DNA of 64,000 nucleotides. Source: Gammaproteobacteria bacterium. GTDB lineage: Bacteria; Pseudomonadota; Gammaproteobacteria; Pseudomonadales; Pseudohongiellaceae. The stretch is taken from the NCBI GenBank assembly GCA_030828385.1, contig JAURCS010000006.1, positions 1 to 64,000 of the forward strand. Reading direction: 5' to 3'. The translations under genes and the position numbers were made by a program. The notes beneath the pieces are model-generated. The model searched no databases, was not told where the DNA came from, and was given only the letters and a program-made list of their open reading frames with translations. Of the stretch, positions 33,899 through 60,644 are shown in pieces; positions within the stretch are counted from its first letter, which is position 1, and the number at the start of each line of letters is the position of its first letter.

Positions 33899-34027
33899 GA
33901 CTAAAAGTGGACAGATTTATTATGACTAAAAGGGGGCAGATTTATTTATTTAGACTAAAAGGGGACAGATTTATTTATTCGGATTTTTTATTCGGAAAAC
34001 GTCCCAAAAAATAAATCTGTCCTCTTT
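33899..34027. repeat. Tag-repeat array: three direct copies and one inverted copy
   Basis: Three near-identical units (GACTAAAAGGGGACAGATTT, with small changes) begin at 33899, 33924 and 33953, spaced 25-29 bp. A complementary copy AAATAAATCTGTCCTCTTT lies at 34009-34027. The last direct and the inverted copy could form a long hairpin. It marks the boundary between housekeeping and accessory halves. Confidence 0.82.
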
Positions 34028-34063
34028 AACAGTCCCTATTAACAACCGGGTAGAAAGTATTGC

Positions 34064-34936
34064 TTAATCGGCCCCTTCAGTTCTCGGAAAAAACGGCTCG
34101 TCGAAATCGTCTTCCAGATCAATCATGAACTGGTTGTTTTCCTGGCAGATATATTCCTTCATATCTGTTCCCTCAATCCAGGGGATATCCCACTCGGCTT
34201 CCCAGGGCTCATAAAAAGCGCCGGGATCATCAATCACGATGCGGTAGTTGAGTTTTTCCTTGTAGGGACGGGTCATGTATTCGGTCGTTCGCAGCTGGTC
34301 GGTATGATGTGTTCCGCTGTAATCGAGCCAGGTCTTTTCGTTGTAGCCGATGGTGTCCACCACCAGGGTATCGCCTTCCCAATGACCCACGGAGTGGCCG
34401 AAGTAGGTTGGGTTCACTTCCTCCAGTGTCTGCTGCTCACGACCATCCATGAAGATTTCGCGCCAGACGTGGCCGCCACCCTCGAAAATAATCAGGATTC
34501 TGTCCTTGTGCTGAACAATTTCTGCCGGGTAGGGCGTGGCAAAGGCCCGTGGACCACCCGGTGGTAAACAAAATCCTTCCGGGTCGAACTTGGAGTCGTT
34601 ACTGGTATGGTATTCCCACATGGACTTGACCCAGGGGCGCCATGGCGCTTCGCGCGGCACATCCCTGGCATTGGCGAAATTGCTTACCCAGGGCAGATCC
34701 CAGTAGCCATCGCCGCTTAGATCCGGGGTGCCGTCAGCAAGTCGGGGTGTCGGCGTCCGTGGGCCATCATCATCAATCAGATAGGTATTTTCGGACCCTT
34801 TGACCGCCGTGGTATTGGCAATCGTTGGATGAAGTTCCTCGCCGTCCTCAAAGACCTGCGCTGTCGCGTGTTGCCCGAAAGCGGCAGCAATACTGCTCAT
34901 GGCGAAGATCAGTGTCAGTTTGTAATGCTTCTTCAT
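34064..34936 (-). CDS. Conserved secreted protein of unknown function
   Basis: A 290-aa protein with a signal peptide ending ATAQ near residue 27. It then has the phrases TPRLADGTPDLSG, FCLPPGGPRAF, PAEIVQHKDRILIIFEG, WREIFMDG and the very regular FGHSVGHWEGDTLVVDTIGY. I recognise this from many uncharacterised proteins of Proteobacteria and Acidobacteria, often present as multiple copies, but no biochemical function is known to me. Rich in Trp and Asp. It is bordered by tag repeats and is divergent from the next gene. Confidence 0.8.
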   Translation of the reverse strand: MKKHYKLTLIFAMSSIAAAFGQHATAQVFEDGEELHPTIANTTAVKGSENTYLIDDDGPRTPTPRLADGTPDLSGDGYWDLPWVSNFANARDVPREAPWRPWVKSMWEYHTSNDSKFDPEGFCLPPGGPRAFATPYPAEIVQHKDRILIIFEGGGHVWREIFMDGREQQTLEEVNPTYFGHSVGHWEGDTLVVDTIGYNEKTWLDYSGTHHTDQLRTTEYMTRPYKEKLNYRIVIDDPGAFYEPWEAEWDIPWIEGTDMKEYICQENNQFMIDLEDDFDEPFFPRTEGAD

Positions 34937-35083
34937 AGAGTACCCGGTAATCGTTTAGAGAGGCCGATTAGTCTACCAAAAAACGCAGGGGTGTAAATCA
35001 CGGGGATCTGACGCCTGTTGACACAAAAATCAGAAGCGTTATCTTTCAGAGCCATGTCTCTTTTTCAAAACGGACCCCACACC

Positions 35084-36202
35084 ATGTTGTTTCGATTGAT
35101 CGCTCTGGTTTCACTGTCACTGTATTTCCTGCCGACGGCAGCGCAGGACCTTAATTGCCCACAAAATTATCGTTATACCTTTAGCTGGTCCCAGGCACAG
35201 GGCTGTGATTTTCTGCCCCGGGGCGGTACCTCAACCGGCACACCGGTCACACTGGATCCCGATCCCCATGCTGGCTGGCTTAGCCTGCAGGAACCTGGTC
35301 TCAGCAAAAAGGAACAAGACCGGCGCGCTATTCTTGCCATGGCGGGCCCTTACCGCACCAGTTTTGAATTTCTGGAAACCGTTGCCTATACACCGGACTT
35401 TGAACGCGGACGTCCCTACCAAAGCTGGGGAACGGAATATATCTATGTGGTGGAAGAGCGCGAGGACTTCATCAGTCTGCAGCATATCATCGTGATGTAT
35501 GTGAAGGGCGAGGATGAGCAGATCATGGGGCCCTTTGTTCAAAAACACTGGCGCCAGGACTGGGCCTATGAAAAAAACAGTGTGTTTGCCTATATTGGTC
35601 ATGACACCTGGGCGCATCAGGGGGTTCCTGAATCCGAAATCAGTGGCAGTTGGGCGCAATCAGTTTATCAAGTGGATGACTCCCCCCGTTATGAGTCCTG
35701 GGGTCAATGGCAGCACTGGGAAAACGTGTCCACCTGGCTCAGTGCCGAGACCTGGCGTCCCATCCCGCGCCGTGAAAGCAGTGTGCGCGAGGATTACGAC
35801 GTGCTGATTGGCACCAACCGCCATACCATCGTACCCACTGGCTGGGTGCACGAGGAAGAAAACTACAAGGTCGTGCTGAACGGCCATGGCGCTATAGATA
35901 ACGGCCTGCCATTTTTGTCCAAGGAACTGGGCGTCAACCGTTACGAGCGCATCATCGACTTTGATTTTTCCGCCGGTGATGACTACTGGTCTTCCACCTC
36001 ACGCTACTGGGAAGATGCGCGCGCGGTCTGGTCGCAATTGTTTGCCTCGGCCCAGCAGCACACCATTGCCCCCAGTGTCGACGGGGTTCCCCTGTTCGCC
36101 GTGCTGTTTGGACAAGCGCAGGAATTCTCTGGCGATGAGGAATATGATTCTGAAGCGGTGAGGACAATGATTCGGACTGCATTGCGGCCGTATTTTCAGT
36201 GA
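35084..36202 (+). CDS. DUF6607-like conserved secreted protein
   Basis: About 372 aa from the ATG at 35084, which starts a clear signal peptide (MLFRLIALVSLSLYFLPTAAQ); longer in-frame starts at 35018 and 35054 are possible. The mature protein is rich in Trp, Tyr and charged residues, with GRPYQSWGTEYIYVVE, KHWRQDWAYE and WRPIPRRESSVR. These fit the DUF6607 family as I recall it. No function is known. The location is probably periplasmic. It is followed by a tag repeat and then by the molybdenum hydroxylase gene on the same strand. Confidence 0.75.
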   Translation: MLFRLIALVSLSLYFLPTAAQDLNCPQNYRYTFSWSQAQGCDFLPRGGTSTGTPVTLDPDPHAGWLSLQEPGLSKKEQDRRAILAMAGPYRTSFEFLETVAYTPDFERGRPYQSWGTEYIYVVEEREDFISLQHIIVMYVKGEDEQIMGPFVQKHWRQDWAYEKNSVFAYIGHDTWAHQGVPESEISGSWAQSVYQVDDSPRYESWGQWQHWENVSTWLSAETWRPIPRRESSVREDYDVLIGTNRHTIVPTGWVHEEENYKVVLNGHGAIDNGLPFLSKELGVNRYERIIDFDFSAGDDYWSSTSRYWEDARAVWSQLFASAQQHTIAPSVDGVPLFAVLFGQAQEFSGDEEYDSEAVRTMIRTALRPYFQ

Positions 36203-36212
36203 GACTAAATTA

Positions 36213-36243
36213 AAGTGAATTAAAGGGGACAGATCTATTTTTT
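36213..36243. repeat. Tag repeat (AAAGGGGACAGATCTATT)
   Basis: Single copy of the AAGGGGACAGATTTATT family just after the DUF6607-like stop codon. Confidence 0.7.
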
Positions 36244-36296
36244 AAAATGCCTTCGTTCCCTTTGATTTTCCTGACTCATTGATTCAGGATATGCCC

Positions 36297-38531
36297 ATGA
36301 CTATAAGACGCCACAAAGAATCCCCGTCATCATCAGGCCAGTTGAACCGTCGCTGCTTTCTGAAAGCCAGCACCATGGCCGGCGCCGGCTTTTCCCTGGC
36401 GACCTATTTCCAGGCCCCCAATGTACTGGCCGCTGACCAGCCCGGCTCCGATCAGCTCGAGTTGAATGCCTTTGTTGAAATTGGCCCCGACGGGTCTATT
36501 TCCCTCTACGCCCACAACCCGGAAAAAGGCCAGGGCACCAAGACCTCGCTGCCCATGATCATTGCCGAGGAACTGGGTGCGAACTGGAATGATGTCACCG
36601 TGGTCAGGGCCCCTTTTAATGAAGCCCGCTACGGCATACAACGCGCCGGGGGCTCCACCTCAACACCCCGCGAATTCGATCCCATGCGCCGCGCCGGTGC
36701 CGCCGCCCGCACCATGCTGATTGGCGCAGCCGCCAGGCGATTATCTGAAGACCCCACCCTGTTTTACTCCGAGAACAGCCATGTCATCCATCGCAATAGC
36801 GGACAGGCGCTGACCTTTGCCGAACTGGCCCTGGATGCCGCCATAGAGCCAGTCCCGGACATGGACACTCTGGTCTTTAAGCCCCGAAGTGAATACACCA
36901 TTATCGGCACCCATGTGGGCGACGTGGACAACCACACCATCGTCAGCGGGGCCAGCCTGTATGGCTCGGATATCCAGCTGCCGGGTATGCTGTACGCCGT
37001 CTATGAAAAATGCCCTGCCACTTACGGCAGGGTAGTCAGTGTCAATCTTGATCACATCAAATCCTTGCCCGGCATTGTTGATGCTTTTATGGTCGAGGGT
37101 AATGACAATGTCGGTGAACTGCTGGACGGTGTCGCCATCGTCGCCCGCTCCACCTGGCAGGCCTTCAAGGCAAGACAGCAACTGGACGTGCAGTGGGACA
37201 CCTCAAAAGCCTCCAAAGACGATAATGTTGATTTCTTCACCCGTGCCCAGGCGGTTGCCGATGCGCCATGGCCGGCTGACAAGCAGATCGCCGAATCAGG
37301 CAATGTTGAAAATGAGTTCAACAGTGACCTGACCACCGTGGTCACCAGCAGCTACCATTTTCCCTACCTGGCCCATGCCTGCATGGAGCCCATGAACTGC
37401 ACCGCCCATTACCATGCAGATTCCAACTCTCTGGAGATCTGGGCACCCACACGCCAGCCGCAACTCACCGTGGCGTCCATGGGCAATGTCTTCGACATTC
37501 CCCCTGAAAATATCACTCTGCACATGATGCGCATGGGCGGCTCGTTTGGCCGTCGCCGCCTGCAGGATTATTCCTGCGAGGCCGCCGCCATTGCCCGGCG
37601 TTTTGATGTGCCGGTGAAACTACTCTGGACAAGGGAAGATGACCTTATGCATGACCAGTACCGCCCCGGCGGCATCTACGCCTTCAAGGGTGCGGTTAGC
37701 CGCGAGGGCAGGGTAGTGGCCATGCAGAATCACCTGATTGGCGGCTCCGTACGCGGCGTCGCCACCGCCGGCACCCGCCTGAGCCGTGACGAATTCCCGG
37801 CCCTGAATATCGATCACTACCGCGCCGCGGTATCTCTGATCGACACCAACACCCCCACCGGTTCCTGGCGCGCCCCCGGCTCCAACGCCACCGGCTGGGC
37901 CGTGCAAAGCTTTATTGACGAACTGGCCCACGCTGCTGGCCGCGACCCCGTGGAACACCTCATTGAGATGATGGGCGAACCGCGCTGGTTCGAAGAGGGC
38001 AGCACCGGCTCACTGAATACCGGCCGCGCCGTGGACGTCATCAAACTCGCCGCCGAACAAAGCGGTTGGGGTAAAGCCCTGCCTGCCGGGCATGGCATGG
38101 GTATCGCTTTTCACTTCAGTCATGCCGGCCATGTGGCCGAGGTGGCCGAAGTCAGTGTGGATGCCAATAACAAGGTTACTGTTCACAGGGTCACAGCAGC
38201 GGTGGATATCGGGCCGGTCATCAACATGAGCGGCGCAATCAAACAGGTGCAGGGTGCGGTGTTCGATGGCATCAGTTCACTGGCCGGGCTTGAGATCACC
38301 ATGAAAGACGGTGTGGTGCAGCAGGATAATTTTCATCAGTACAACTTGTTGCGGATAAAGAATGCACGTACCGAGATTGATGTGCATTTTATCCAGAGTG
38401 ATCATCATCCTACCGGATTGGGGGAGCCGGCGTTGCCACCGTTGATGCCGGCGGTTTGTAATGGGATTTTTGCGGCGACGGGGAAGAGGGTTAGGAAGTT
38501 GCCGATTACCAGGGAAGGGCTTTTGGTTTAG
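36297..38531 (+). CDS. Molybdopterin-dependent hydroxylase, IorB-like (isoquinoline 1-oxidoreductase beta type), Tat-exported
   Basis: 744 aa from the ATG at 36297, which has AGGA 7 nt upstream; ATGs at 36279 and 36291 are in frame. A Tat signal (LNRRCFLKAS, then a hydrophobic stretch to AADQ) shows export of the folded enzyme. The molybdenum-site loop is MGGSFGRRR and the catalytic Glu is in GLGEPALPP near the C-terminus, as in the xanthine dehydrogenase family. The single-chain large subunit resembles IorB. The [2Fe-2S] subunit IorA that normally accompanies it is missing here. XdhC and MocA-like genes lie at 7.5-9.1 kb. Confidence 0.9.
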   Translation: MTIRRHKESPSSSGQLNRRCFLKASTMAGAGFSLATYFQAPNVLAADQPGSDQLELNAFVEIGPDGSISLYAHNPEKGQGTKTSLPMIIAEELGANWNDVTVVRAPFNEARYGIQRAGGSTSTPREFDPMRRAGAAARTMLIGAAARRLSEDPTLFYSENSHVIHRNSGQALTFAELALDAAIEPVPDMDTLVFKPRSEYTIIGTHVGDVDNHTIVSGASLYGSDIQLPGMLYAVYEKCPATYGRVVSVNLDHIKSLPGIVDAFMVEGNDNVGELLDGVAIVARSTWQAFKARQQLDVQWDTSKASKDDNVDFFTRAQAVADAPWPADKQIAESGNVENEFNSDLTTVVTSSYHFPYLAHACMEPMNCTAHYHADSNSLEIWAPTRQPQLTVASMGNVFDIPPENITLHMMRMGGSFGRRRLQDYSCEAAAIARRFDVPVKLLWTREDDLMHDQYRPGGIYAFKGAVSREGRVVAMQNHLIGGSVRGVATAGTRLSRDEFPALNIDHYRAAVSLIDTNTPTGSWRAPGSNATGWAVQSFIDELAHAAGRDPVEHLIEMMGEPRWFEEGSTGSLNTGRAVDVIKLAAEQSGWGKALPAGHGMGIAFHFSHAGHVAEVAEVSVDANNKVTVHRVTAAVDIGPVINMSGAIKQVQGAVFDGISSLAGLEITMKDGVVQQDNFHQYNLLRIKNARTEIDVHFIQSDHHPTGLGEPALPPLMPAVCNGIFAATGKRVRKLPITREGLLV

Positions 38532-38535
38532 GCGA

Positions 38536-38557
38536 GTTGCAAGCGTCCCTATTCGAC
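38536..38557. repeat. Tag repeat (GTTGCAAGCGTCCCTATTCG type)
   Basis: Matches the right arm of the long inverted repeat at 60622-60644 and continues ATTCGAC as at 58531-58545. It follows the molybdenum hydroxylase stop codon by 4 nt. Confidence 0.75.
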
Positions 38558-38588
38558 CCTAGTCCGAAACAAATTGATTTTGAAAAAA

Positions 38589-38612
38589 ACCCACCATTTG
38601 GTGGGTTTGTTG
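38589..38612 (+). terminator. Intrinsic terminator after the molybdenum hydroxylase gene
   Basis: ACCCACCA and TGGTGGGT form a perfect 8-bp stem with a TT loop, followed by a T-rich tail. A-rich on the other side, so it may serve both convergent genes. Confidence 0.82.
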
Positions 38613-38617
38613 TTTAA

Positions 38618-38652
38618 GAATCAAGGGGAATCAAGGAGTCAGGTTACTTGTT
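38618..38652. repeat. Tag repeat (AATCAAGGAGTCAGGTTACTTG)
   Basis: AATCAAGGGG followed by AATCAAGGAGTCAGGTTACT, a diverged copy of the 26-bp element found exactly at 49777-49802 and 56581-56606. Confidence 0.75.
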
Positions 38653-38668
38653 CCCCAGATTAAGAGTT

Positions 38669-39697
38669 TTATTGACGAGTAAACTGGTCGAACCATTCGA
38701 AGGCTGGTGCACCAAGTACCTCATGAGTACCCGGTCGTACCGTTACTCTCAAATTATCCACGGCGCGTCGCAGATAAATCACCCGTCCCGACAAGGGATC
38801 CACACGTAGCGTTTCTTCTGGTGGAATTTCCGCGTTCGGCGCAAATTTTTTGATATCCTGATCAGAAATCAGACCTGGAGCCAAGGCCCTGAAAGCACGC
38901 AAGGAGTTTTGTACGGGCACTAAACCATCTCCCAGCTGACCGTTCAAATCCAAGGGAGGAAGGTGCAATCCTGGTTCGAAGTGATTAATTGGTGAACGCA
39001 CATTGATCTTGTCGCGTATGTCAGCCGAGAGATCTGGATCACCGCCAAAGCATTCTCGCATCGAAGCACCGTAGCGATTGTCCTTGTCCTTCTCGTACAT
39101 CACCAAAAGGTCTCCAAAACCACTCCAGGCGCTGACAGCGGCCCAAACCTCGGGGTGCCTGTGCGCCATGATCAAGCTCATAAATCCACCGCCGGAGAAG
39201 CCAACCAGATAAATCTTGCTCTCATCAATGGAGTAATTGGATTTAGCCCAGCTCACAACATCAAGAATGTCCTGCTGGGCAAACTCATTGCCGCAGTGGT
39301 TAACAAAGGGGCCACGGTAATCCGGAATAGCAAGAAGCCAGCCGCGTTCGGCCGCAGCAGCCTCAATGTCCGGACGCCGGTCGGTGTAGCCGACACTCCA
39401 GCCGTGCAGGTAAACCACCAGGCCCATAGGATACTCAATTTTATCCTGGGGAACGACAATGGCGACATTCTGTTCCTTACCATCCAGACTACTGGGTATC
39501 TGGACTACTTCATAGCCGGGCGGTTCTGGCAGTGAAGCTGTCGGCGGCAGGTTATTGATTGCTGCCTGATCGATATCCATTACGACAGCGGGTGTAGAAG
39601 TTAATGTCGAGGTTAACGCCCCGCAGCCGACGAGAGCTATGCTGCTGGCAAAAACCACCAGCAGGGAGGCACGTAAGTTGGTCAATACATGTAGCAT
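38669..39697 (-). CDS. Alpha/beta hydrolase lipoprotein, PHB-depolymerase/feruloyl-esterase-like
   Basis: A 342-aa protein with a lipobox (ALVGCG near residue 24). The hydrolase core has YLHGWSVGYTDRR, the nucleophile in GFSGGGFMS near residue 170, and a C-terminal His within the RPGTHEVLG region. The style matches the LpqC/PHB-depolymerase family of secreted esterases. It would sit in the outer or inner membrane facing the periplasm. The substrate is unknown; neighbouring aromatic-acid genes make an ester of a phenolic acid possible. Confidence 0.82.
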   Translation of the reverse strand: MLHVLTNLRASLLVVFASSIALVGCGALTSTLTSTPAVVMDIDQAAINNLPPTASLPEPPGYEVVQIPSSLDGKEQNVAIVVPQDKIEYPMGLVVYLHGWSVGYTDRRPDIEAAAAERGWLLAIPDYRGPFVNHCGNEFAQQDILDVVSWAKSNYSIDESKIYLVGFSGGGFMSLIMAHRHPEVWAAVSAWSGFGDLLVMYEKDKDNRYGASMRECFGGDPDLSADIRDKINVRSPINHFEPGLHLPPLDLNGQLGDGLVPVQNSLRAFRALAPGLISDQDIKKFAPNAEIPPEETLRVDPLSGRVIYLRRAVDNLRVTVRPGTHEVLGAPAFEWFDQFTRQ

Positions 39698-39937
39698 AAG
39701 TATTCTCCTGGAATTTTAATATTCGTGTTAACCGAAGTCTTGATTGTGCCTCGACATATCCGGGACCTTGCCGGGACTTGCCTGTCTCTGCCAGCCTGTG
39801 CAGAAAAATCATGATTGGCCCGCCGGGACATCTGCCCGGAACAAACGGAATTTGAGTTAACTGTTATATTTTGTACCTGTATAAATCAAATGGATAAAAA
39901 TCTGAAAGGACCGCTCTGTTAGCAAACCTGTGACTTG

Positions 39938-41251
39938 CTATTCCAGTTCACTCCGACATGTTTCATTCGCGGTAAATGCAGTCACAGCAACCAGCAAGGT
40001 TATGGCAAGAGCAAAACTGCCGACTTTCAATGGAATGTTCTCAGAACCCGGTGGCGCAATGGCGATAAATACTGCCGGGAAAAAGGCAGTGATCATGGTG
40101 CCGAGGTTTTGTGAGATTGCCATCGCAGAAACCCTGACTTTGGCCGGGAAAAGTTCCGGGTAAAAACTGGGAAAGACAGCATTGTAGCCCTGGTAAATAA
40201 TCCCCCACATCAATAGTGATAGAGCAATGGCCATCGGCATATTGTGAATGCTGATGGCGTAGAGGTAGGCAAAAGAGAGTAATCCGGCACCCAGAGAGCC
40301 AAACATGATTGGCTTGCGTCGGCCTATCCCGTCGGACATTTTTCCGACAAATGGAATTACCACCACTGCGATGATGTTTCCCAGAACCGGTATCCATAAA
40401 TAGACGGCAGTTGAAAAACCGATGCCGTAACTTTCCTGCACAGCATAGGCAGCACCGAAAACAGTGGCAACGATGGGAATGACATTCATCAGTGACATCA
40501 CCATGACACGCAGCATGTTTGGCCAGTGCTCCCGGATAGCTGTCAATGCGGGAAGGACTTGATCCTTGCTGTCTTCCACTTTGGCATTGAAAACGGGTGT
40601 TTCATCTACGCTTCTGCGAATGATGAAGCCGGCAATAATGACAATAAAGCTGAGCAGGAAAGGAATCCGCCAACCCCAGCTTTCGAAACCTTCCGGGGAC
40701 AGGTAATACGCCAAAGGCAGAAATATGGCTGCCGCCAGGATCTGTCCGGCCTGAACACCTTGCAGGGTAAAGCTGGCATAAAAGCCACGCTGTCCTGCGG
40801 GGGCGTGTTCCAGGATCATTGTACTTGCCCCGGAAATTTCCCCGGCTACGGCAAAGCCTTGTATCAATCGTAGAAGAACCAGTATAAGCGGTGCCATCCA
40901 GCCTATTTGCTCGTAAGTGGGTAGCAATCCCACCCCCATGGTGGAGCCTCCCATCATGAACATGCATAAAAGCAGTACTTTTTTGCGACCATGGGTGTCT
41001 CCCCAATGGCCAAGGAAAATGGCCCCAATGGGTCTTGCTATATAACCGACACCGTAAGTGGCCAGCGAGGCGATCAGAGCCACGCGTGGATCCTCTGAGG
41101 GGAAGAACAGTTGCGGAAACACCAGTGCCGAAGCGGTGGCATAAATGAAAAAATCATAATATTCAAGCACCGAGCCTATCCAGCCACTGGCAGTAGCCTT
41201 GCGTGTTTGCTCGTGAACTTGGGTTTTTCCTTTCAACAGGTCACTTATCAT
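39938..41251 (-). CDS. MFS transporter, metabolite:H+ symporter (MHS) family
   Basis: A 437-aa carrier with about 12 hydrophobic helices. It has the MHS features: an N-terminal SGWIGSVLEYYDFFIYATAS helix, then PIGAIFLGHWGDTHGRKK between helices 2 and 3, and RLIQGFAVAGEISGAS. Relatives import aromatic or dicarboxylic acids such as shikimate (ShiA), protocatechuate or alpha-ketoglutarate. It lies 2 nt after the remnant of a hydroxycinnamoyl-CoA hydratase-lyase and near a quinate/shikimate-type dehydrogenase, so aromatic or alicyclic acid uptake is likely. Confidence 0.9.
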   Translation of the reverse strand: MISDLLKGKTQVHEQTRKATASGWIGSVLEYYDFFIYATASALVFPQLFFPSEDPRVALIASLATYGVGYIARPIGAIFLGHWGDTHGRKKVLLLCMFMMGGSTMGVGLLPTYEQIGWMAPLILVLLRLIQGFAVAGEISGASTMILEHAPAGQRGFYASFTLQGVQAGQILAAAIFLPLAYYLSPEGFESWGWRIPFLLSFIVIIAGFIIRRSVDETPVFNAKVEDSKDQVLPALTAIREHWPNMLRVMVMSLMNVIPIVATVFGAAYAVQESYGIGFSTAVYLWIPVLGNIIAVVVIPFVGKMSDGIGRRKPIMFGSLGAGLLSFAYLYAISIHNMPMAIALSLLMWGIIYQGYNAVFPSFYPELFPAKVRVSAMAISQNLGTMITAFFPAVFIAIAPPGSENIPLKVGSFALAITLLVAVTAFTANETCRSELE

Positions 41252-41253
41252 TA

Positions 41254-41713
41254 TTATTTTCTGGCAAACAACTCAGTTGGAACAGCATCAATACCTATTC
41301 GGGATTGAGACTTATTATAACCGTCCAGTCCCGGCTTGTAGGTTTTATGATCAATGAACTGCTTGAAACCGTCTTTGCGGCCTTCATGGTCAAAATAATT
41401 AGTCGCTTTCTGTGCCGTCACCAAGTAATCCTCTGCATTGTCATAGGTCATGTACATAACGTGTCGGATTGCGTCCTTGGTGGTCTTCATCGGTTAGCAC
41501 TAATACACCGACATCGTCTCTATATTCCAGAGCATCCAGAACGCGCAAAATCTGCCGGTTTAGTTTCGAGTTCATACAATTGCGTTTTTCCGGGCGATTG
41601 AATTTTACCCAGGCAAAATTGTTTTTCATTTCATAGGCTACTGTGTCTTGTTTTTGTTCTTTATATGCCATTGGGTGCTCATAATTTTTTCGTGTTAGTT
41701 TTATTTGTGTCAT
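41254..41713 (-). pseudogene. Hydroxycinnamoyl-CoA hydratase-lyase (feruloyl-CoA) remnant with internal deletion
   Basis: The upstream part encodes a crotonase N-terminus (NFAWVKFNRPEKRNCMNSKL ... VGVLVLTDE). The other part, in another frame, gives the family's C-terminus (DNAEDYLVTAQKATNYFD, then GFKQFIDHKTYKPGL). The intact enzyme is about 276 aa; roughly 145 central codons holding the active site are missing, with the junction near 41480-41490. The pieces are still adjacent and in order, so this is a single internal deletion with a frameshift. The gene would have turned feruloyl- or coumaroyl-CoA into vanillin or hydroxybenzaldehyde. Confidence 0.85.
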
Positions 41714-41797
41714 TCAGCATCAAATCTCTGGTGAAGGTCACCTGATAAATAGACTGATGCAATAGATTTTTTCATCTGGGTTTACAGTCTACTTTTT

Positions 41798-42640: not shown

Positions 42641-42734
42641 TCAGTCTCTCTCTATTCGGGAAATAAAAATGTTGAGACGGGCAATTAGAAGGTATTACAG
42701 CCTGCTAAGTAAAATATCCAAATTTCCAAAGCCT

Positions 42735-42749
42735 ATAACATAGTGTTAT
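42735..42749. promoter_or_regulatory. LysR-type box ATAACA-TAG-TGTTAT
   Basis: A perfect 6-bp dyad with a 3-nt centre, containing the T-N11-A core (T42736, A42748). It lies between the divergent dehydrogenase and lysR genes, 43 bp before the lysR ATG, where a LysR protein would bind to control both. Confidence 0.7.
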
Positions 42750-42791
42750 GAAGCGATTTTAGTGTAAGCTTTGTGGATTTGGGGGTAATGC

Positions 42792-43682: not shown

Positions 43683-43766
43683 AACGTGCACTTTTCTTAA
43701 TCTACACGCTCAAAATCCTAGTTCGACTGAATCTCAGAACCTATAATTCCATGTTATGGATGCCCA

Positions 43767-43807
43767 ATTAATCGGTATTGGTGTACATTAATCTATTATG
43801 GATTAAT
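43767..43807. promoter_or_regulatory. ATTAATC boxes upstream of the hydrolase-cytochrome operon
   Basis: ATTAATC occurs at 43767-43773 and 43787-43793, exactly 20 bp apart, and its complement GATTAAT at 43801-43807. The last two form a dyad with a 7-nt centre. The set lies about 140-170 bp before the first start codon, as expected of regulator sites. Confidence 0.5.
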
Positions 43808-49776: not shown

Positions 49777-49802
49777 AAATCAAGTAACCTGACCCCTTGA
49801 TT
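49777..49802 (-). repeat. 26-bp tag repeat, left boundary copy
   Basis: Begins AAATCAAGTAACCTGACCCC and ends TTGATT. It is the exact reverse complement of 56581-56606. The two bracket the DUF1592-DUF1552-ankyrin-NmrA block. Confidence 0.88.
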
Positions 49803-52484: not shown

Positions 52485-52514
52485 CGGTAGACAGGACAGA
52501 AAACGGAGCAAAGC

Positions 52515-53798: not shown

Positions 53799-53832
53799 AA
53801 TTTTGAGAACAGAAAATAGAGAAGAGGCGGTA

Positions 53833-55473
53833 GTGAAAAAATTGCAGGGAAAGGTTTCATGTTACTCGCATCAGTTGGGCGAGGTCCTGGTGATCTGCGC
53901 GATCGTGCTGTTTGGCGAGCCACTGATTGCCCAGCCTCTTTCTGTGCCCAGACCTGATCAGGTGCAGGCATCGCCAGTAGCCGAAGCTGCCAGGCAAGGG
54001 GACCGACAAGCAGTACAGGCTCTTCTCCGACAAGAGCTGGACGTTAACGGCCTGGGCCGGGACGGCACACCAGCATTGCACTGGGCAGTACGCGTCAACG
54101 ATCAGGAACTGGTCGACTTGCTGCTCGATGCCGGGGCACACATAAACGGTGTCAACCGGTATGGGCAAGCCCCGCTGCATATTGCCTTGCAGAGCCGTCA
54201 TACAGACATGGTGCGGCGGCTACTCGACGTTGGCGCTGACGTGGAACAAGCGGATCTAGGTGGCGAACCGCCACTGCTGTTGGCAACACGGCTGGGTGAT
54301 CCCGACATGGTGGAGGTGTTGCTGGAGGCCGGGGCGCAAGTAGATACCCGGGACCTGAACTATGGACAAACAGCACTGATGATTGCCGTACGAGAGGAAC
54401 ATGCAGGGTTGGTAGAGCGACTTCTTGTGGCCGGCGCCGATGTTAATGCGCAGAGTTTTGCCGGTGAGGTGCACAGAATGGTTTTGCCCAGCGAAGTTCC
54501 CGTGGGTACGTCGCAGGGCGTGGGTATCAATCGGTCCGGATTGCCAGATAGAGGGATGCGTTACCCGATCACCGGTATGAAGACCCCGCTTTTGTATGCG
54601 ACCCGGCAGGGCAATTTAGAACTTACACGCCAATTGGTGGAAGCCGGGGCCGACATCGAAACTGCGGATGCCAATGGCATCACGCCACTGATCAATGCGA
54701 TTCTTAATCACAGCATCGTCAACGTGAATCGCTCCGGGCAAAGTGATCATCTGAAGATTGCGCAGTATCTGGTCGAGGCAGGGGCCAACGTCAATGCCCA
54801 GGACTGGTATGGACAGACAGCTCTTTGGGTCTCCGTTGATACTCGAAACCTGGAATTTGCAGTGACAGAAACGACCAATCGGGTGGACAGAGAAGGGGCC
54901 TTTGCGCTGATAGAGTCCCTGCTTGCTGCGGGTGCGGATCCCAATCCACGGACAAGGGAATTCCCTCCCGAAAGACGCTTCATCGCTGGCACCGGTTCCA
55001 ACGGTTGGGTCGATATGACAGGACAGACGCCATTTTTGCGCGCCTCGGTTGCGGGCGACCTGCGGGTTTTACAACTGCTGCTCGACTACGGTGCCGATCC
55101 CAATATAACTACCTTTGATGGGACTAACGCGTTGATGCTTGCTGCCGGCATCACCTGGGCTGTCGCGGAAACTTTCGATGAAGGTGCTGATGCTCTGCTG
55201 GAAACGGTGAAGCTGACACATGCCCTGGGCAATGATATCAACGCCGGAAACTCGCTGGGTCTGCGGGCGATTCACGGTGCTGCCAATCGAGGATCCAACG
55301 ACATCATTTCATATCTTGCTGAAAACGGTGCGCTGCTGGATGTGGCCGACAATGAAGGCCGTACAGCCATCAATTGGGCAGAGGGTGAGCTCACGGGTGC
55401 GCGTGCACCGACGCGAAAGCCGGAGACCATCGCCTTACTGCAGAAGTTGCAAGCCAGGGCTGCGCCAGAGTAA
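53833..55473 (+). CDS. Secreted ankyrin-repeat protein
   Basis: 546 aa from a GTG at 53833, chosen for the AGAGG site 5 nt upstream and the signal-like start VKKLQGKV...LIAQPL; the frame is open back to 53767, inside the DUF1552 gene. Nine or so ankyrin repeats follow, for example DGTPALHWAVRVNDQELVDL and GQAPLHIALQSRHTDMVRRL, interrupted by insertions near residues 220-260 and 375-400. Ankyrin proteins bind partners; here the likely partners are the two upstream gene products in the periplasm. It ends the three-gene operon. Confidence 0.9.
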   Translation: MKKLQGKVSCYSHQLGEVLVICAIVLFGEPLIAQPLSVPRPDQVQASPVAEAARQGDRQAVQALLRQELDVNGLGRDGTPALHWAVRVNDQELVDLLLDAGAHINGVNRYGQAPLHIALQSRHTDMVRRLLDVGADVEQADLGGEPPLLLATRLGDPDMVEVLLEAGAQVDTRDLNYGQTALMIAVREEHAGLVERLLVAGADVNAQSFAGEVHRMVLPSEVPVGTSQGVGINRSGLPDRGMRYPITGMKTPLLYATRQGNLELTRQLVEAGADIETADANGITPLINAILNHSIVNVNRSGQSDHLKIAQYLVEAGANVNAQDWYGQTALWVSVDTRNLEFAVTETTNRVDREGAFALIESLLAAGADPNPRTREFPPERRFIAGTGSNGWVDMTGQTPFLRASVAGDLRVLQLLLDYGADPNITTFDGTNALMLAAGITWAVAETFDEGADALLETVKLTHALGNDINAGNSLGLRAIHGAANRGSNDIISYLAENGALLDVADNEGRTAINWAEGELTGARAPTRKPETIALLQKLQARAAPE

Positions 55474-55534
55474 AAAATTAATTAGTTTTAAGGTCCTCTT
55501 CTTGGTCTGGCCGAAAGCATAAAAAGGGCATAAA

Positions 55535-55581
55535 AAGGGGACAGATTTATTTTATTTTATGAAAAATATATCTGTCCCCTT
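55535..55581. repeat. Tag-repeat hairpin (AAGGGGACAGAT / ATCTGTCCCCTT)
   Basis: A perfect 12-bp inverted pair separated by an AT-rich stretch of about 23 nt. It follows the ankyrin gene. A T-rich tail is lacking, so it is a repeat hairpin more than a terminator. Confidence 0.82.
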
Positions 55582-55697
55582 GATTCGCAGTGGCCATTCC
55601 TCCAGGACCAGTAGTCGTAATAGTCGCAAGCTTGCTTGTATAATGTCGGCATGTCATAGCTACAACTTCATACCAAGAAAAATTACAGGGGCACACC

Positions 55698-56573
55698 ATG
55701 ATTTTCGTTTCCGGAGCGAACGGGCAATTTTCCCGTGCAGTGATTGAATCCATCCTTGCGGCCGGGCGGGGGAATGAACTCGCTGTGGGAACGCGTAATG
55801 TAGATTCCCCTTTTGCACAAGAACTTGCAGCACAGGGTGTTAGTGTGCGGCATGCTGATTTCCTTGATCCGGATCTCATGCAAAGCGCACTTGAGGGCTG
55901 CGCCAAGGCGCTGTTCATTCCCACCTACGATACCAACGATGTCCGTCTGCAGCAGAATCTCAATGCACTCGAAGCAGCGCGCGCCGCAGGTGTTGGTCAC
56001 GTGGTCTACCCCAGCTTCATTAATGCGGAATCGCCTCTGGTCGAGCACAGCCGCCTCGTGCACCTGCCGACCGAGCAGGCGATTCGCGATTCTGGCCTTG
56101 CATTCACCATCCTGCGGCACGCGCTTTACGCGGATGTCATGGTAAGCGATCTGCAGGACACGCTCGCCACTGGTGTGCTTCATCGACCTGGTGGTGAGGC
56201 ACGCTGCGCTTACGTGGCACGCGCGGATCTGGGGATATCTGCAGCACAGGTGCTGATGCGCGACGAGCCCTCGGGACGAACCTACTCCGAGACCATGGAA
56301 CGCACGTATTCCGGTAGTGAGATAGCAGACATGATGTCAGAAGTTTTCGGCAGACCAGTACGTTACCAATCCATCGCAGCAGTCGACTGGCCGCACTATG
56401 TGACAGAGCATTGGGGTGTACCACTGGAGATCTCGAAAAGCATGGTGGGCACTTCACTAGCCTTAGAGGCCGGGGATTTCGACCTTGTCAGTCCAGACTA
56501 TGGCGAGATTACCGGCCATCCTCCACGTACGATGCGCGCCTTTCTGGAATCGGTGCGCGACGGCGGAAACTGA
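55698..56573 (+). CDS. NmrA-like NAD(P)-binding reductase (QOR2-type)
   Basis: A 291-aa atypical SDR. The nucleotide motif is IFVSGANGQFSRAV at the N-terminus (GxNGxxxR variant of the NmrA family). HVVYPSFIN and FTILRHALYADVM follow the QOR2/azoreductase-like pattern of E. coli YtfG. AGGGG lies 6 nt before the ATG. Relatives reduce quinones with NADPH or act as redox sensors. It is enclosed with the DUF1592 operon between the two 26-bp inverted tags. Confidence 0.88.
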   Translation: MIFVSGANGQFSRAVIESILAAGRGNELAVGTRNVDSPFAQELAAQGVSVRHADFLDPDLMQSALEGCAKALFIPTYDTNDVRLQQNLNALEAARAAGVGHVVYPSFINAESPLVEHSRLVHLPTEQAIRDSGLAFTILRHALYADVMVSDLQDTLATGVLHRPGGEARCAYVARADLGISAAQVLMRDEPSGRTYSETMERTYSGSEIADMMSEVFGRPVRYQSIAAVDWPHYVTEHWGVPLEISKSMVGTSLALEAGDFDLVSPDYGEITGHPPRTMRAFLESVRDGGN

Positions 56574-56580
56574 AGGCAAG

Positions 56581-56606
56581 AATCAAGGGGTCAGGTTACT
56601 TGATTT
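56581..56606 (+). repeat. 26-bp tag repeat, right boundary copy
   Basis: Begins AATCAAGGGGTCAGGTTACT and ends TGATTT. It is the exact reverse complement of the copy at 49777-49802. It begins 8 bp after the NmrA-like stop codon. Confidence 0.88.
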
Positions 56607-56615
56607 CCTGTTAAC

Positions 56616-58127
56616 TTACTCCGGCGCGAGAGAAGGCGCTGGTTGCTGGGGCGTGTTGGGTGCGCGCCACGGCTCGACGTTCACGGCAGGGAAGTAAGTT
56701 GACAAGCGCTGTTTTACCGCTTCCAGAGCGGGATCATCGGCCAGATTGGTCCACTCGTTGGTATCGTTTTCATGATCGTAGAGTTCCTCGGCGCCATCGG
56801 CATAACGGGTGTAGCGATAACGCGGACCTCGCACTGAATGATTGTTCTGGCCCCAGGTACTCAGCACAGCGCGATCCCACTCCATGTCCGGATTCTCCAG
56901 AAGAGGCATCAGGCTGTCCCCACCTTCCAGGTGATTCGGTGCCTCCAGTCCCGCCAGTTCGACCAGGGTCGGATACAGATCCATGGAAGACACGGGCACA
57001 TCGGAACGGCTGCCTGGTGAGGTAACCCCGGGAGCAACAATAATCAGTGGTACCTGCAGCGCTACTTCCCACAGGGTTTCTTTTTCACGCTGGTTCTTTT
57101 CACCAAGTTGGTAGCCGTGGTCACCCATCATGATAATGATGGTGTTATCGGCACGCCCACTCTCATCGAGAGCATCCAGCAGTCTGCCCACTGCGGCATC
57201 GGCCACGCTGACACTGGACAGGTAAGCCTGCACCGCTTCTTCCCAGGCGCCGGCTTCCATGATGGGTTTCATACGCTCAGTGGAGTGATGCGCCGGATCA
57301 ATATCATCCAGGTCATTTTCAAGATAAGGCGGTGTCTGCACGCTTTCCAGAGGATATAGATCAAAAAATTCCTGCGGGTTGTACCAGGGGGCATGGGGTC
57401 GATAGATGCCGGCGCCGATAAACCGGGACTGGTTCAATGCATTGGTCTCTCCCATGCGTTGCACAACATAGTTGCTGGTCATGCCGTCGATGGTGGCTTC
57501 GTAATTGCTGACCACGGGGCCCCAGTTGAACTGCAACTGGTTCACAGCAGCAGGTTTGATCTCATCAGGTAACTGCCAGTCCAATGCTGGCCAGAAGTCA
57601 TCCCAGGCATTCACATCATTAAACCCGGGATGCCCGCCAGGAAAAAACGTATGGGCATGGAAAATCTTGCCGGCTCCAAAACTCATATATCCTGAATCCC
57701 GGAAATAACGGGGCAGGGAAGCATAGTTTTCAAACTCGGGCATTTGTCGCCAGTCCTGACCGTTGTTGTAAACCCCGGAACTGGAAGGCCGTCTGCCAAA
57801 CAGGGCGGCTGTACGAATGGCATTACATTGTGGCGCAATGGTGTGCGCATTGGTAAAAATCATTCCGCGTGAAGCCAACTCGGTCATGTTTGGTGTGATG
57901 GCCTGCGAATCCCCCATTGGCGCTATCATGGTATTGAGGTCATCCACCATGATCAGCAGTACATCCGGTCGCTCACCCTGACCTGCAGCCGGGCGAATCA
58001 GTGTCGATTGCACGGGCGAAGCGTCTGCGTCAGTAACTGATTCATCCATGTCCGGTGTCTGACCACAGCCAGCCACCAACCCGGATAGGGCTATAGCCAA
58101 ACCTGCATGAAAATACGCTTTCTTCAT
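56616..58127 (-). CDS. Sulfatase lipoprotein, iduronate-2-sulfatase-like
   Basis: A 503-aa protein with a lipobox (LVAGC, lipidated Cys about residue 21). Metal ligands D62 and D63 are in IMVDDLN. The formylglycine site is C101 in QCNAIRTAALFG, the CxAxR form rather than CxPSR. Other family marks: GKIFHAHTFFPGGHPGFND, APWYNPQEFF and MGDHGYQLGEKNQREKETLW. It would remove sulphate from a sulphated sugar in the periplasm or at the cell surface. Maturation needs a formylglycine enzyme encoded elsewhere. Confidence 0.92.
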   Translation of the reverse strand: MKKAYFHAGLAIALSGLVAGCGQTPDMDESVTDADASPVQSTLIRPAAGQGERPDVLLIMVDDLNTMIAPMGDSQAITPNMTELASRGMIFTNAHTIAPQCNAIRTAALFGRRPSSSGVYNNGQDWRQMPEFENYASLPRYFRDSGYMSFGAGKIFHAHTFFPGGHPGFNDVNAWDDFWPALDWQLPDEIKPAAVNQLQFNWGPVVSNYEATIDGMTSNYVVQRMGETNALNQSRFIGAGIYRPHAPWYNPQEFFDLYPLESVQTPPYLENDLDDIDPAHHSTERMKPIMEAGAWEEAVQAYLSSVSVADAAVGRLLDALDESGRADNTIIIMMGDHGYQLGEKNQREKETLWEVALQVPLIIVAPGVTSPGSRSDVPVSSMDLYPTLVELAGLEAPNHLEGGDSLMPLLENPDMEWDRAVLSTWGQNNHSVRGPRYRYTRYADGAEELYDHENDTNEWTNLADDPALEAVKQRLSTYFPAVNVEPWRAPNTPQQPAPSLAPE

Positions 58128-58449
58128 AATATGTCCCCGTCTGGCTTTTTGTTTTTATGATCTACACCTGGTTTTAATAGCGGCACCCGAAGCATAAAGC
58201 AGTATAAAGGGATACCCACTTCTCAAGCAATTTGCTGTTTTCCGAATTTGGAATGAATCAAGTGTATCAAGGGGGCAGAGTTCTTGATCCCCGTCCTCTT
58301 GACCAGAATGACCGGGCTATTTCTGATATTTTTAGAATTATAAAAACCAGAGCAGTTTTTTCATTATCTAGAACTCTGACCCCGTGATTGCTTTATTAAT
58401 ATACCGGGCCGATGGTATCGTAACCCTCACATTGTTAACGGATAACGTC

Positions 58450-58528
58450 ATGCAGGCGATGCTTTTGCCACAAGCCAATGCCCCCCTGGAACTTGTCGAC
58501 ATCGACAAGCCGCAACCCGGAGCGGGAA
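58450..58528 (+). pseudogene. Zinc-type alcohol dehydrogenase, 5' remnant
   Basis: An ATG opens MQAMLLPQANAPLELVDIDK, PQPGAG: the normal first 26 residues of a medium-chain zinc alcohol dehydrogenase (compare the MKAMVLE...PxPGxGEV pattern). Homology ends abruptly just before the tag GCGTCCCTATTCGAC at 58531-58545. Nothing of the remaining 300 codons is nearby, so the break is at the tag. Confidence 0.65.
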
Positions 58529-58530
58529 TA

Positions 58531-58545
58531 GCGTCCCTATTCGAC
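58531..58545. repeat. Tag repeat (GCGTCCCTATTCGAC) at the break of the dehydrogenase relic
   Basis: Identical to the core at 38543-38557 and close to 60638-60653. It directly follows the end of dehydrogenase homology. Confidence 0.7.
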
Positions 58546-58652
58546 ATGAGCATTTTTGCAGTAAAGGTCAGCAGGGACTATATTACCGGAACACTCTGAA
58601 CCAATTTATCCAGAGATTATCTGCAGTTCAGGGAGTCGATGGGGGAAGGGCA

Positions 58653-59180
58653 TTGAAACCAATTACTGTTACATTAATGACATGCATGCTGAGCGTACTT
58701 CTGGTTCCACAGGTGCCTGCCGCGACCGCAGCTGAACCTTCACTGGAAACTCTTGCTGCAAGAGTGCAGCTGCTGGAAGATCGGGAGTCTATCCGTAACC
58801 TGATCCTGGCCTATGGCACTGCGCATGATAATCGTGATTACCGCACCTTTGCCAACCTGTTTGCCCGGGAGGGCGAGTGGGTGAGTGGCATGGGTTCTGC
58901 AAAGGGGCCAGATGCCATATTCAAGCTCATGGATGGCATGATAGGGCACAACCCCATGCCCGAAGGCTCCGGGACCTATCATCTGTTGAGCAATGAAAAT
59001 ATTGCGATTGATGGTGATTATGGCTCGGCGGTCACCAAGTGGGTGTATATCACTCCGGATGCCAACGGCGCGCCGGCCGTTACTATTTTGGGGCATTACA
59101 ACGATCTATTTATTCGTGAAGCTGGCCAGTGGAAGTTTCTGCGCCGGGAAGCCCCCATGGATTTACCTGCCGGTGGCTAA
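58653..59180 (+). CDS. SnoaL/NTF2-like protein, secreted
   Basis: A 175-aa protein using a TTG start at 58653 with GGGGGAAGGG just upstream; the nearby ATG at 58639 is out of frame. The N-terminus is a signal peptide ending ATAAE. The rest is one NTF2-like cone: LEDRESIRNLILAYGTAHDN, TFANLFAREGEWVSG, HLLSNENIAIDGD and WKFLRREAP. These folds act as small hydrolases, isomerases or binding domains; no function can be assigned. The paralogous-looking two-domain protein downstream may share a substrate. Confidence 0.83.
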   Translation: MKPITVTLMTCMLSVLLVPQVPAATAAEPSLETLAARVQLLEDRESIRNLILAYGTAHDNRDYRTFANLFAREGEWVSGMGSAKGPDAIFKLMDGMIGHNPMPEGSGTYHLLSNENIAIDGDYGSAVTKWVYITPDANGAPAVTILGHYNDLFIREAGQWKFLRREAPMDLPAGG

Positions 59181-59192
59181 TTTCCCATGCCA

Positions 59193-59226
59193 AATCAAGG
59201 GGAACTAAAGCAGACAGATTTTTTTG
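59193..59226. repeat. Tag repeat (AAATCAAGGGG...CAGACAGATTTTT)
   Basis: Two modules are joined: AATCAAGGGG, as in the 26-bp tag, and CAGACAGATT, as in the ACAGATTTATT tag. The mixture shows how the mosaic is built. Confidence 0.65.
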
Positions 59227-59307
59227 TTCTATAAAAATAGTATTAAGACAATTTTGGCGCACATCTCAGGATTGCGCGTTTTATAAAATCCCTACAGAGT
59301 ATTTATC

Positions 59308-60192
59308 ATGAAAATTCCTGCTTCTTTCCTGTTGATATTTTTAACCATCGGACTCAGCGGAGTATCTGCTGCCCAGGATATGCCCTTGGATTACGGGGCC
59401 TATGTGAGGGATTTCAATTCCGGGAATGACGAGGGTCTGGTGGAGAAATATTTTGCTGAAGATACGGTGATGATCAGTGGCAGTGGTGAGTTTCATGGCC
59501 ATGCCGGCATGAACGAGTTTCTTGCCTGGGCTCATGATGGTGTGCGTGAAATACTCAGGCCGGTCAATATTGCCTATGATGACAGCAATATCTTTGTCGA
59601 AGTGGATATGGATTTTGTCGCATCGAAAGAGAGACCGGAATTTCCTTTTGGTCACATGCTGCCGGGCGATATCGTCACGGTGAAGTTTCTGGTCCATTAC
59701 ATTGTTAATGAGGACGGTCTCATCCAGGAGTTGCAGACCATGACCTGGGAACCGGAGAGAGAGGTCAGCAAGATTCCCCGCCTGGGTGAGCACCCGGGAC
59801 AAAAAGCGGCATTTCTGGCCTATACAGCGGCTTTCAGTGCCGGTTTGCCGGATCAGTATTCTGCTTATTATACGGATGATGTGGTACTGGAATTACCGTC
59901 CGTCGACAGTATCTCAGGCAAACAGGGGATTGTGGATTTCTATACTGACATGTTTGTTACGGTGCGGGAGTCACTTGAAATCAATACCGTGATTTATGAT
60001 GAGCATGCCATAGTCGGTGACTTTATCAGTGTGTTCACGGCCTCTGCTGATGCGCCCGATTTTCCTGTCGGTCCGCTCAGGGCAGGAGAGCAGTACCGGG
60101 TTCCCGTATTAGTCTATTACACGCTGGAAAATGGTCTGATCAGCCACATTCGTGTGGCCCGCATGGGGGATGCTTTATTAAATCGCCCATAG
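59308..60192 (+). CDS. Secreted protein with two SnoaL/NTF2-like domains
   Basis: A 294-aa protein with a signal peptide ending SAAQ near residue 22. Two NTF2-like cones follow in tandem: first YGAYVRDFNSGNDEGLVEKY with FHGHAGMNEFLAW, then FLAYTAAFSAGLPDQYSAYY with SISGKQGIVDFYTDMF. Tandem duplication within the gene is plain. There is no catalytic motif I can name. It follows the single-domain SnoaL protein on the same strand and is followed by a tag repeat. Confidence 0.8.
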   Translation: MKIPASFLLIFLTIGLSGVSAAQDMPLDYGAYVRDFNSGNDEGLVEKYFAEDTVMISGSGEFHGHAGMNEFLAWAHDGVREILRPVNIAYDDSNIFVEVDMDFVASKERPEFPFGHMLPGDIVTVKFLVHYIVNEDGLIQELQTMTWEPEREVSKIPRLGEHPGQKAAFLAYTAAFSAGLPDQYSAYYTDDVVLELPSVDSISGKQGIVDFYTDMFVTVRESLEINTVIYDEHAIVGDFISVFTASADAPDFPVGPLRAGEQYRVPVLVYYTLENGLISHIRVARMGDALLNRP

Positions 60193-60199
60193 TCAGTGT

Positions 60200-60229
60200 T
60201 GAATCAAGGGGCCGTCCCTATTTAGTTTC
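60200..60229. repeat. Tag repeat (GAATCAAGGGGCCGTCCCTATTT)
   Basis: A hybrid of the AATCAAGGGG module and the GTCCCTATT module, between convergent genes. Confidence 0.65.
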
Positions 60230-60535
60230 AAAAACAATCGCCTCCAGGGCATTGTCCGCAATCAACGGCGTTTCGAAATAACGGATGGTTGGTTCAGTCC
60301 CATAGGTTTCCATAAGCCGCTGCCTCCAGGCGGCATCATGAGCCTTGTCTGCCGCCTCTCGATTATGCCAGGTATACAAGGCCCCTCCCTGATTTTTCCC
60401 GGCATCATAAAGAAAGGTCTTGCGAATCAGGTCAGGATTTTTTCGCCAGTGAGGGGCAATGTCTTCCATGTCTTTCACTACCTTTTCGCGACTGATACCA
60501 ACAGGCAAATCAAACAGTACATATTCCGAAATCAT
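60218..60535 (-). CDS. YdhR-like dimeric alpha/beta-barrel protein
   Basis: A 105-aa cytoplasmic protein. YVLFDLPVGISREKVVKDME, WRKNPDLIRKTFLYD, GGALYTWHNREAADKAH and a PTIRYFETPLI segment fit the small monooxygenase-like (YdhR/ABM-type) fold, which acts on aromatic or quinone compounds or has no known activity. The start has a weak upstream AGGA. It lies between tag repeats; its 3' end is covered by the tag at 60200-60229. Confidence 0.7.
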   Translation of the reverse strand: MISEYVLFDLPVGISREKVVKDMEDIAPHWRKNPDLIRKTFLYDAGKNQGGALYTWHNREAADKAHDAAWRQRLMETYGTEPTIRYFETPLIADNALEAIVFETK

Positions 60536-60569
60536 TTTCCTAATCCTGAATTAAAGGGGACACGGTAAT

Positions 60570-60644
60570 AGGGACGCTTGCAACTTAGCAACCTATAAAT
60601 ACGCCAAATATATTTTGTAAAGTTGCTAAGTTGCAAGCGTCCCT
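60570..60644. repeat. 23-bp perfect inverted repeat (AGGGACGCTTGCAACTTAGC type)
   Basis: The arms 60570-60592 and 60622-60644 are exactly complementary over 23 nt, with a 29-nt loop. This is the longest hairpin in the window. It contains the GTTGCAAGCGTCCCT tag also seen at 38536. It lies between two minus-strand genes. Confidence 0.9.

Follow-up and report, generated by a model that had tools for sequence, protein, structure and literature searches.

Short intergenic tags in a Pseudohongiellaceae contig are very probably terminal inverted repeats of several TIRYT families

The systems closest to the repeats described here are TIRYT and TIRtrons, named by Di Nocera 2013 (PMC3733652), which describes a Y1 transposase gene lying between terminal inverted repeats (TIRs) that share GGGGWSAS, and TIR families present elsewhere in the genome as singles, dimers and groups. 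In Quentin 2018 (PMC6006769), 20 of 26 TIRYTs belong to subclass 2.1 of TnpAY1, with GGGG[AT][CG]A[CG] in the flanking repeats. TIRYT is a known, little-studied kind of element, sister of RAYT and its repetitive extragenic palindromes (REP). Here we looked at short modules, called tags from now on and sorted into families 1 to 4, that recur in the first 64,000 nucleotides of contig JAURCS010000006.1 of a gammaproteobacterium of the Pseudohongiellaceae (assembly GCA_030828385.1). The window is this whole stretch (G000:C116:1-64000, in a genome, G000, of 2.62 Mb and 149 contigs), the tags were inspected at 33.9-60.7 kb, and comparisons were made across 58 genomes, G000 included, among which its congeners include G002, G003 and G005. 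We conclude that the tags are very probably TIR-type repeats, that is, ends and short non-autonomous derivatives of several TIRYT families. The initial annotation had considered an undescribed repeat system; this kind of system has already been described, as TIRYT/TIRtron and TnpAY1 subclass 2.1.

Tags were counted with five patterns, allowing one or two mismatches, and the window gave 19 matches, whereas 20 windows shuffled by a Markov model averaged 0.35 and never exceeded 2, which rules out a chance origin. Seventeen of the 19 were inside 33.9-60.7 kb (two overlap at 38536-38557) and all 17 were non-genic, although only 13% of the bases of that stretch are non-genic, the genic or non-genic call resting on a gene set that we chose from the open reading frame (ORF) list. 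The other two were at 1888, non-genic, and at 3484, inside a gene and probably a chance match. All four modules were present as the initial annotation had placed them, alone, as inverted pairs and as a cluster (Table 1), and their position between genes was borne out. On the contrary, its statement that nearly every junction carries a tag was too strong, since only 10 of 21 gene junctions at 33.8-60.7 kb are tagged (a decayed tag and a doubtful site at 60200, both discussed below, included), and 0 of 8 between 39.7 and 48.5 kb. The repeats are also not confined to the accessory half, as a tag-like palindrome lies at 1877-1902.

The link with transposases comes from Y1 loci of other genomes. 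At the level of sequence, tags flank many Y1 genes elsewhere, their head recurs and their tail tracks protein relatedness. We fetched 160 Y1 loci, of which 146 had an ORF and 140 were testable for a 24-base flanking inverted repeat matching at 18 positions or more. Results showed such a repeat at 112 of the 140 loci compared with 2 of 140 when shuffled, or at 108 of 135 distinct proteins. In the layout read from the loci, the gene has ~240 codons, the first inverted tag precedes its start by ~40-120 bases and the other is near the stop. Two groups of transposases, A and B, were first named by eye. An alignment of five group A proteins (A1), scanned against named genomes, gave at least 539 confirmed stretches, and the best 80 of these, with proteins 43-59% identical to the query, were in records named Gammaproteobacteria, Deltaproteobacteria, Nitrospirae, Planctomycetota, Pseudomonas, Thalassospira and others; the repeat was found at 62 of 78 testable loci and at none of 78 shuffled ones. 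GGGACAGAT[TC]TATT is held by 52 of the 62 repeat-bearing loci. A tag of ~24 bases is kept across phyla while the proteins drop to ~50% identity. With at least 539 confirmed group A relatives, TIRYT elements look common, yet in the literature searched the term TIRYT occurs in two papers only.

The encoded proteins match Y1_Tnp (PF01797) at 47.6-57.1 bits (cut-off 23) in four of four TIRYT proteins, and H60, H62 and Y121 are each at least 95% conserved among 52 proteins. Three transposase copies with the same ends, ATAAAGGGGACAGATTTATTTTCCC ... GGGAAAATAAATCTGTCCCCTTTTTT, are present in the Pseudomonas record NZ_CP116719.1; two of them share the right flank and may be one duplication. This record (L343) is labelled a plasmid, its incomplete annotation table lists no replication gene, and its TIRYT copies stand among small accessory genes.

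The head is largely common to the group. GGG[AT]C[AG] was present in an arm of 94 of 108 distinct repeat-bearing loci and in both arms of 84, with no register imposed. Of the 41 loci outside the group A scan, 31 have T and 10 have A after GGGG; the base that follows is C in all 41, though the rule allowed T and G. The tail behaves differently: its identity climbs with protein identity, from 0.46 at 25-35% to 0.89 at 70% or more. We compared tails and proteins in 86 distinct loci with a repeat score of at least 20 and a head assigned by a fixed rule, 10 headless distinct loci being dropped, and obtained a Mantel r of 0.681 that none of 2000 permutations reached; without the group A scan r was 0.573 (n=41, again 0 of 2000). 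Mapped on a FastTree tree of the 86 proteins, three tail labels require 7 changes where shuffling gave 33.9 on average (none of 200 shuffles was as low), and the GAT[TC]TATT tail requires 3 where it gave 29.1 (none of 500); FastTree issued a warning about long branches. Partial correlations, 0.09 and 0.22, did not single out a part of the protein as the tail reader. The data suggest a testable rule by which most of the group shares the head and the tail is linked to the transposase branch, and this offers a simple reading of the modularity of heads and tails.

Tags of the window find counterparts among these TIRs. The family 1 forward tag at 55535-55581 is identical in 24 of 24 bases to the TIR of a Planctomycetota TIRYT (L244), the family 2 tag at 56581-56605 in 22 of 24 to that of L046, and family 3 is nearest to L298 with 20 of 24. 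Judged by these matches, family 1 goes with one transposase group, and another group is the counterpart of both family 2 and family 3. Family 4 is built alike, with a GGGAC head and long inverted arms, and its assignment to the group is guesswork.

Several observations weigh against this explanation. No flanking repeat of the kind described was found at 28 of the 140 Y1 loci or at 16 of the 78 group A loci. Strict GGGGWSAS occurs in an arm of only 77 of the 108 distinct loci, and 14 of the 108 have no head in their 24-mers; these 14 include three RAYT-like loci with GT[AG]G arms (L203, L209, L210), the marginal L048, and L053 and L275, whose best 24-mer lies beside or across the head. Within the Mantel set, head invariance is no evidence because it is imposed by the register rule, which demands GGG as well as a purine placed two bases beyond the fourth base of the head. 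Tail labels cluster on the tree but are not single clades. Family 4 matches no TIRYT tail (best 15 of 24), and its sequence GGGACGCTTGCAAC was not found flanking a transposase among the 58 genomes. A PF01797 search of the own genome gave no intact cognate transposase for families 1-4; the congener G002 has 11 exact family 1 tags yet no Y1 match; and, among the loci examined, a group A gene is present in only three of the seven genomes with exact family 1 tags. Moreover, families 1-3 yielded no clean empty site.

Y1 matches were obtained in 43 of the 58 genomes, and a cognate family 1 transposase is present in the relatives G006, G012 and G035. In agreement with the initial annotation, no transposase was found among 10 scanned proteins of the stretch, nor in this contig by the whole-genome Y1 search. 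The search it suggested, for a Y1 gene flanked by the same modules, was successful in relatives; the own genome has Y1_Tnp in two places only, the decayed L020 (C43), between GGAGGGATTTATTTTT arms with another tail, and L021. L020 matches L047 of G003 (C215) at 86% over 3.19 kb, which indicates a single old TIRYT insertion, decayed in this genome and intact in G003. L021 (C126:12-3278) is a true RAYT by score, with 181.6 bits, and has GTAG palindromes; judging from scores and flanking repeats, two Y1 repeat systems coexist in this genome. Palindromes of the GTAG type like those of L021 are also at 32569-32594 and 32689-32714 of the window and in congeners. In the own genome, a group B protein also gave four weak matches, the best with E 3.7e-11.

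Presumably, the transposase binds the tag as single-stranded DNA, GGGGACAGATTTATTT being the proposed group A substrate. The head would serve a common cleavage or guide step and the tail would give specificity. By cutting and joining tag-bounded single strands, the enzyme may seed solitary tags and inverted pairs in trans; cutting of single strands is suggested by homology to IS200/IS605 and RAYT enzymes, as presented in PMC8266576. After loss of the transposase, copies would have stayed, tolerated between genes and perhaps in some cases acting as terminators, and then decayed.

Comparison with the described systems places the tags nearest to TIRYT/TIRtron, with which they share a Y1 gene between GGGGWSAS-type TIRs and dispersal as singles, pairs and clusters. 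They differ in that an intact cognate gene was not found here, one genome harbours a mixture of four families, no enzyme is known for family 4, and some heads read GGGGACGG, outside GGGGWSAS. With TnpAY1 subclass 2.1, the proteins share the NHVH and YIELNP motifs, a length of ~238 aa and GGGG[AT][CG]A[CG] in the flanking repeats, while a C-terminal helix-turn-helix (HTH) or DnaA_C domain was not found here (Pfam, E 0.1, four TIRYT proteins). With RAYT/REP-REPIN (NF047646) the common traits are a Y1 enzyme and dispersed short intergenic palindromes, and the tags, by reading, have no GTAG/GTGG foot. Membership in RAYT was rejected, as all five scanned TIRYT proteins scored 67.9-75.7 bits compared with a cut-off of 80 (NF047646) and the GTAG foot is missing. 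The possible REP/RAYT parallel drawn initially pointed in the right direction, as the modules belong to a Y1-transposase repeat system, but this system is the sister of RAYT/REP and not RAYT itself. Likeness to IS200/IS605 consists of Y1/HUH chemistry by homology (PF01797) and of the lack of a visible target duplication at a family 4 empty site; NF033573 was matched by only four of the five TIRYT proteins, and weakly (21-29 bits compared with a cut-off of 55).

We also looked at the spread of the tags, for which a search of the genome and its relatives had been proposed. Family 1 (GGGGACAGATTTATT) has 8 exact matches in the own genome and 19 with at most one mismatch, the reversed control giving 0; at least two of the 19 (C72:80285, C105:51794) are without the usual A-rich context. 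Exact matches occur in 7 of the 58 genomes, that is, the own one and six more (G000 8, G002 11, G003 11, G006 10, G012 36, G035 4, G056 1), and none was found in the other 51, showing that this is not a general sequence feature. Family 4 is in 4 of the 58, all of one genus (G000 11, G002 4, G003 7, G005 1). Tags are dispersed as singles, pairs and clusters, 53 clusters being listed from six genomes. A phage collection queried with a 54-base tag palindrome gave one record with a 24-base match. In the literature searched, judged by title, no earlier use of the tag strings as bacterial repeats was found, and one string appeared in a chloroplast/cyanobacteria paper. Some contigs end at tags or within 200 bases of them (C116:82985-83011 in the own genome; C8, C82, C399 and C460 in G012), suggesting that assemblies may break at the repeats and undercount them.

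Table 1. Tags and related features of the window
Position	Strand	Feature	Remarks
1877..1902	.	Tag-like palindrome GGGGCCAGGGTAAAAACCCTGACCCC	Outside the inspected stretch
33905..34026	.	Family 1 cluster, three forward tags and one reverse, AAGGGGACAGATTTATT type	Last forward/reverse pair is a DNA hairpin, z -5.3
36223..36239	+	Family 1 tag, single, one mismatch	G002 synteny picks up 21 bases on
38536..38557	-	Family 4 end, GTTGCAAGCGTCCC + TATTCGAC on the + strand	5 bases past gene 36279-38531; G002 synteny stops at 38531
38618..38650	+	Family 2 tag, outer part repeated, GAATCAAGGG GAATCAAGGAGTCAGGTTACTTG	
49782..49802	-	Family 2 tag, single, exact	G005 synteny starts ~100 bases on
55535..55581	.	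Family 1 inverted pair, hairpin	DNA fold z -5.0
56581..56605	+	Family 2 tag, single	Fills about half of a 42-base convergent junction
58266..58388	.	Family 3 inverted pair, ATCAAGGGGGCAGAGTTCTTGAT ... ATCTAGAACTCTGACCCCGTGAT	DNA fold z -5.3
58531..58545	+	Family 4 fragment GCGTCCCTATTCGAC	Direct repeat of 38543-38557
59193..59226	+	Decayed family 1 tag (first supposed hybrid)	Aligned to intact tags of G002 and G003
60200..60229	.	AATCAAGGGGCCGTCCCTATTTAG at the 3' ends of two convergent genes (second supposed hybrid)	Terminator-like; doubtful as tag
60570..60644	.	Family 4 hairpin, 23-base arms 100% complementary, 29-base loop	DNA fold z -11.6

Tag pairs give stable folds when single-stranded (z -5.0 to -11.6), and tags might be chiefly intrinsic, often bidirectional terminators at gene 3' ends, their repeated sequence being incidental. 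Convergent junctions would fit, as they are 4 of 10 tagged ones (one being the doubtful 60200 site) compared with 1 of 11 untagged, and a tag pair on contig C97 also stands in a convergent junction. However, enrichment at gene 3' ends had to be discarded, since at least one gene 3' end is present at 8 of 10 tagged and 9 of 11 untagged junctions; single unpaired tags exist (36223, 49782); and a terminator does not need a motif that is the same to the base in another phylum, where it flanks transposase genes. A terminator scan of 44-64 kb gave 15 candidates where 19 were expected, and 60207-60219 was the only one to fall on a listed site, in a scan limited to loops of at most 8 bases that would miss most pairs. 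We therefore consider this explanation very unlikely. No known RNA family reached its gathering score in the window.

A further possibility is that tags are recombination or attachment sites moving the gene cassettes they bound. Against four congeners, 11 of 14 distinct synteny ends were within 120 bases of a tag, a distance that covers 10% of all bases and 51% of non-genic ones. A synteny end was found at 9 of 10 tagged junctions and at 1 of the 3 evaluable untagged ones (of 11 untagged). A 20-kb block, 38531-58547, is absent from G002 and has exact 15-base direct repeats GCGTCCCTATTCGAC at its ends, and the gene 56616-58127 is inverted in G003 with a variant of the 56581 tag still attached to it. 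In G002, the 33905-34026 cluster is missing together with the adjoining 2.4 kb. On the other side, we picked the synteny ends ourselves, leaving out contig ends, small gaps, paralogue matches and the G001 and G004 rows, and the ends have tags in common and lack independence. Among the matches listed, none above 250 bases covers the 8 untagged junctions at 39.7-48.5 kb, which therefore allow no comparison; junctions tolerate breaks anyway; and several tags in plain synteny moved no gene. Taken together, with a small sample and a conserved tag-poor first half, the association between tags and synteny ends is suggestive only, and tags acting as cassette-moving sites seems to us improbable.

Returning to the tags as TIRYT-derived repeats, comparison of orthologous sites provided information on their age. 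Tags are shared at orthologous places across species (L002/L336, L003/L066/L340, L004/L335, L010/L337, L173/L171, L179/L177, L184/L172), indicating that they are old. Alignments thus point to several tags as old and inherited, at least one of them being decayed. The decayed one was initially taken as a hybrid joining halves of two modules. The sequence 59193-59226 aligns gaplessly across the tag to an intact AAAGGGGACAGATTTATTTGTTC in G003, with substitutions only and a one-base length difference upstream, and an intact family 1 tag is at this site also in G002. By this alignment, it is a decayed single family 1 tag with a chance AAGGGG alongside, and not a demonstrated recombinant. The second supposed hybrid, 60200-60229, fared no better: it is present in G002 with few changes and missing in G003, overlaps the 3' end of gene 60218-60535 and contains a terminator-like hairpin at 60207-60219. 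It may have begun as a tag in the common ancestor of G000 and G002.

An empty site was seen for family 4 on contig C97: G002 has the two flanks but not the hairpin, and no target duplication is apparent. At an orthologous C97 junction with both flanks conserved, the family 1 pair is GGGGACAGATTTATT in G000 and G002 and GGGGACGGAGGGATT in G003. Such a change of tag, together with a family 4 without known enzyme, could speak for a separate, undescribed system that recombines module heads and tails, as proposed initially. However, of the two hybrids cited for it one is a decayed tag and the other an inherited sequence, tails track protein relatedness instead of combining freely, and the GGGGACGGAGGGATT of G003 is close to the TIR of its own TIRYT L047 (GGGGACGGAGGGATTTATT), as a new insertion would give. 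We find such a system hardly credible. What stands from the proposal is the different tag family at one orthologous junction of a congener; recombination of heads and tails gives way to a group-wide head and a branch-linked tail.

Tags differed between species elsewhere too. At 60570-60644, with a family 1-like remnant adjoining the family 4 hairpin at ~60552 in the window, G003 has a family 1 pair plus family 4 and G002 a family 1 cluster. After the operon ending at 55473, the tag is family 1 in the window, GGGTCAGAGTAAAAAGTAAC in G005 and ATCAAAGGGGTCAGAGTCATTTGATCC in G006, with homology on the operon side only. Different families share three junctions of the window (38.5, 58.3-58.5 and 60.6 kb). 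In G012, palindromes are nested: mirrored flanks matching in at least 14 of 20 bases occur in 4 of 17 tag pairs compared with 1 of 272 cross-pairings. We tentatively propose, although we rate it as rather unlikely, that tags are preferred landing sites for other tags, so that successive families, landing in or displacing each other's tags between genes, re-tag junctions and tag-bounded genes become exchangeable cassettes. The three tags after one operon, the changed family at the orthologous C97 junction, the G012 nesting, the shared junctions and the synteny ends would all be consistent with it. Against it, mirrored flanks were found in 0 of 19 tag pairs of other genomes, therefore nesting is not general. 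If tags did serve as targets for tags, this would offer a simple mechanism behind mosaic gene junctions.

In the nested G012 pairs L134, L333, L135:3247 and L326, which were counted, and L330, recognized by eye, the flanks are themselves whole or partial tags. Finally, the outer part of a tag is often tandemly repeated just before it, a stutter present in several families and genomes, with examples in the window (33890-33975, 38618-38650, 55515-55551), in L062 and L056, and in L343:14100-14240.

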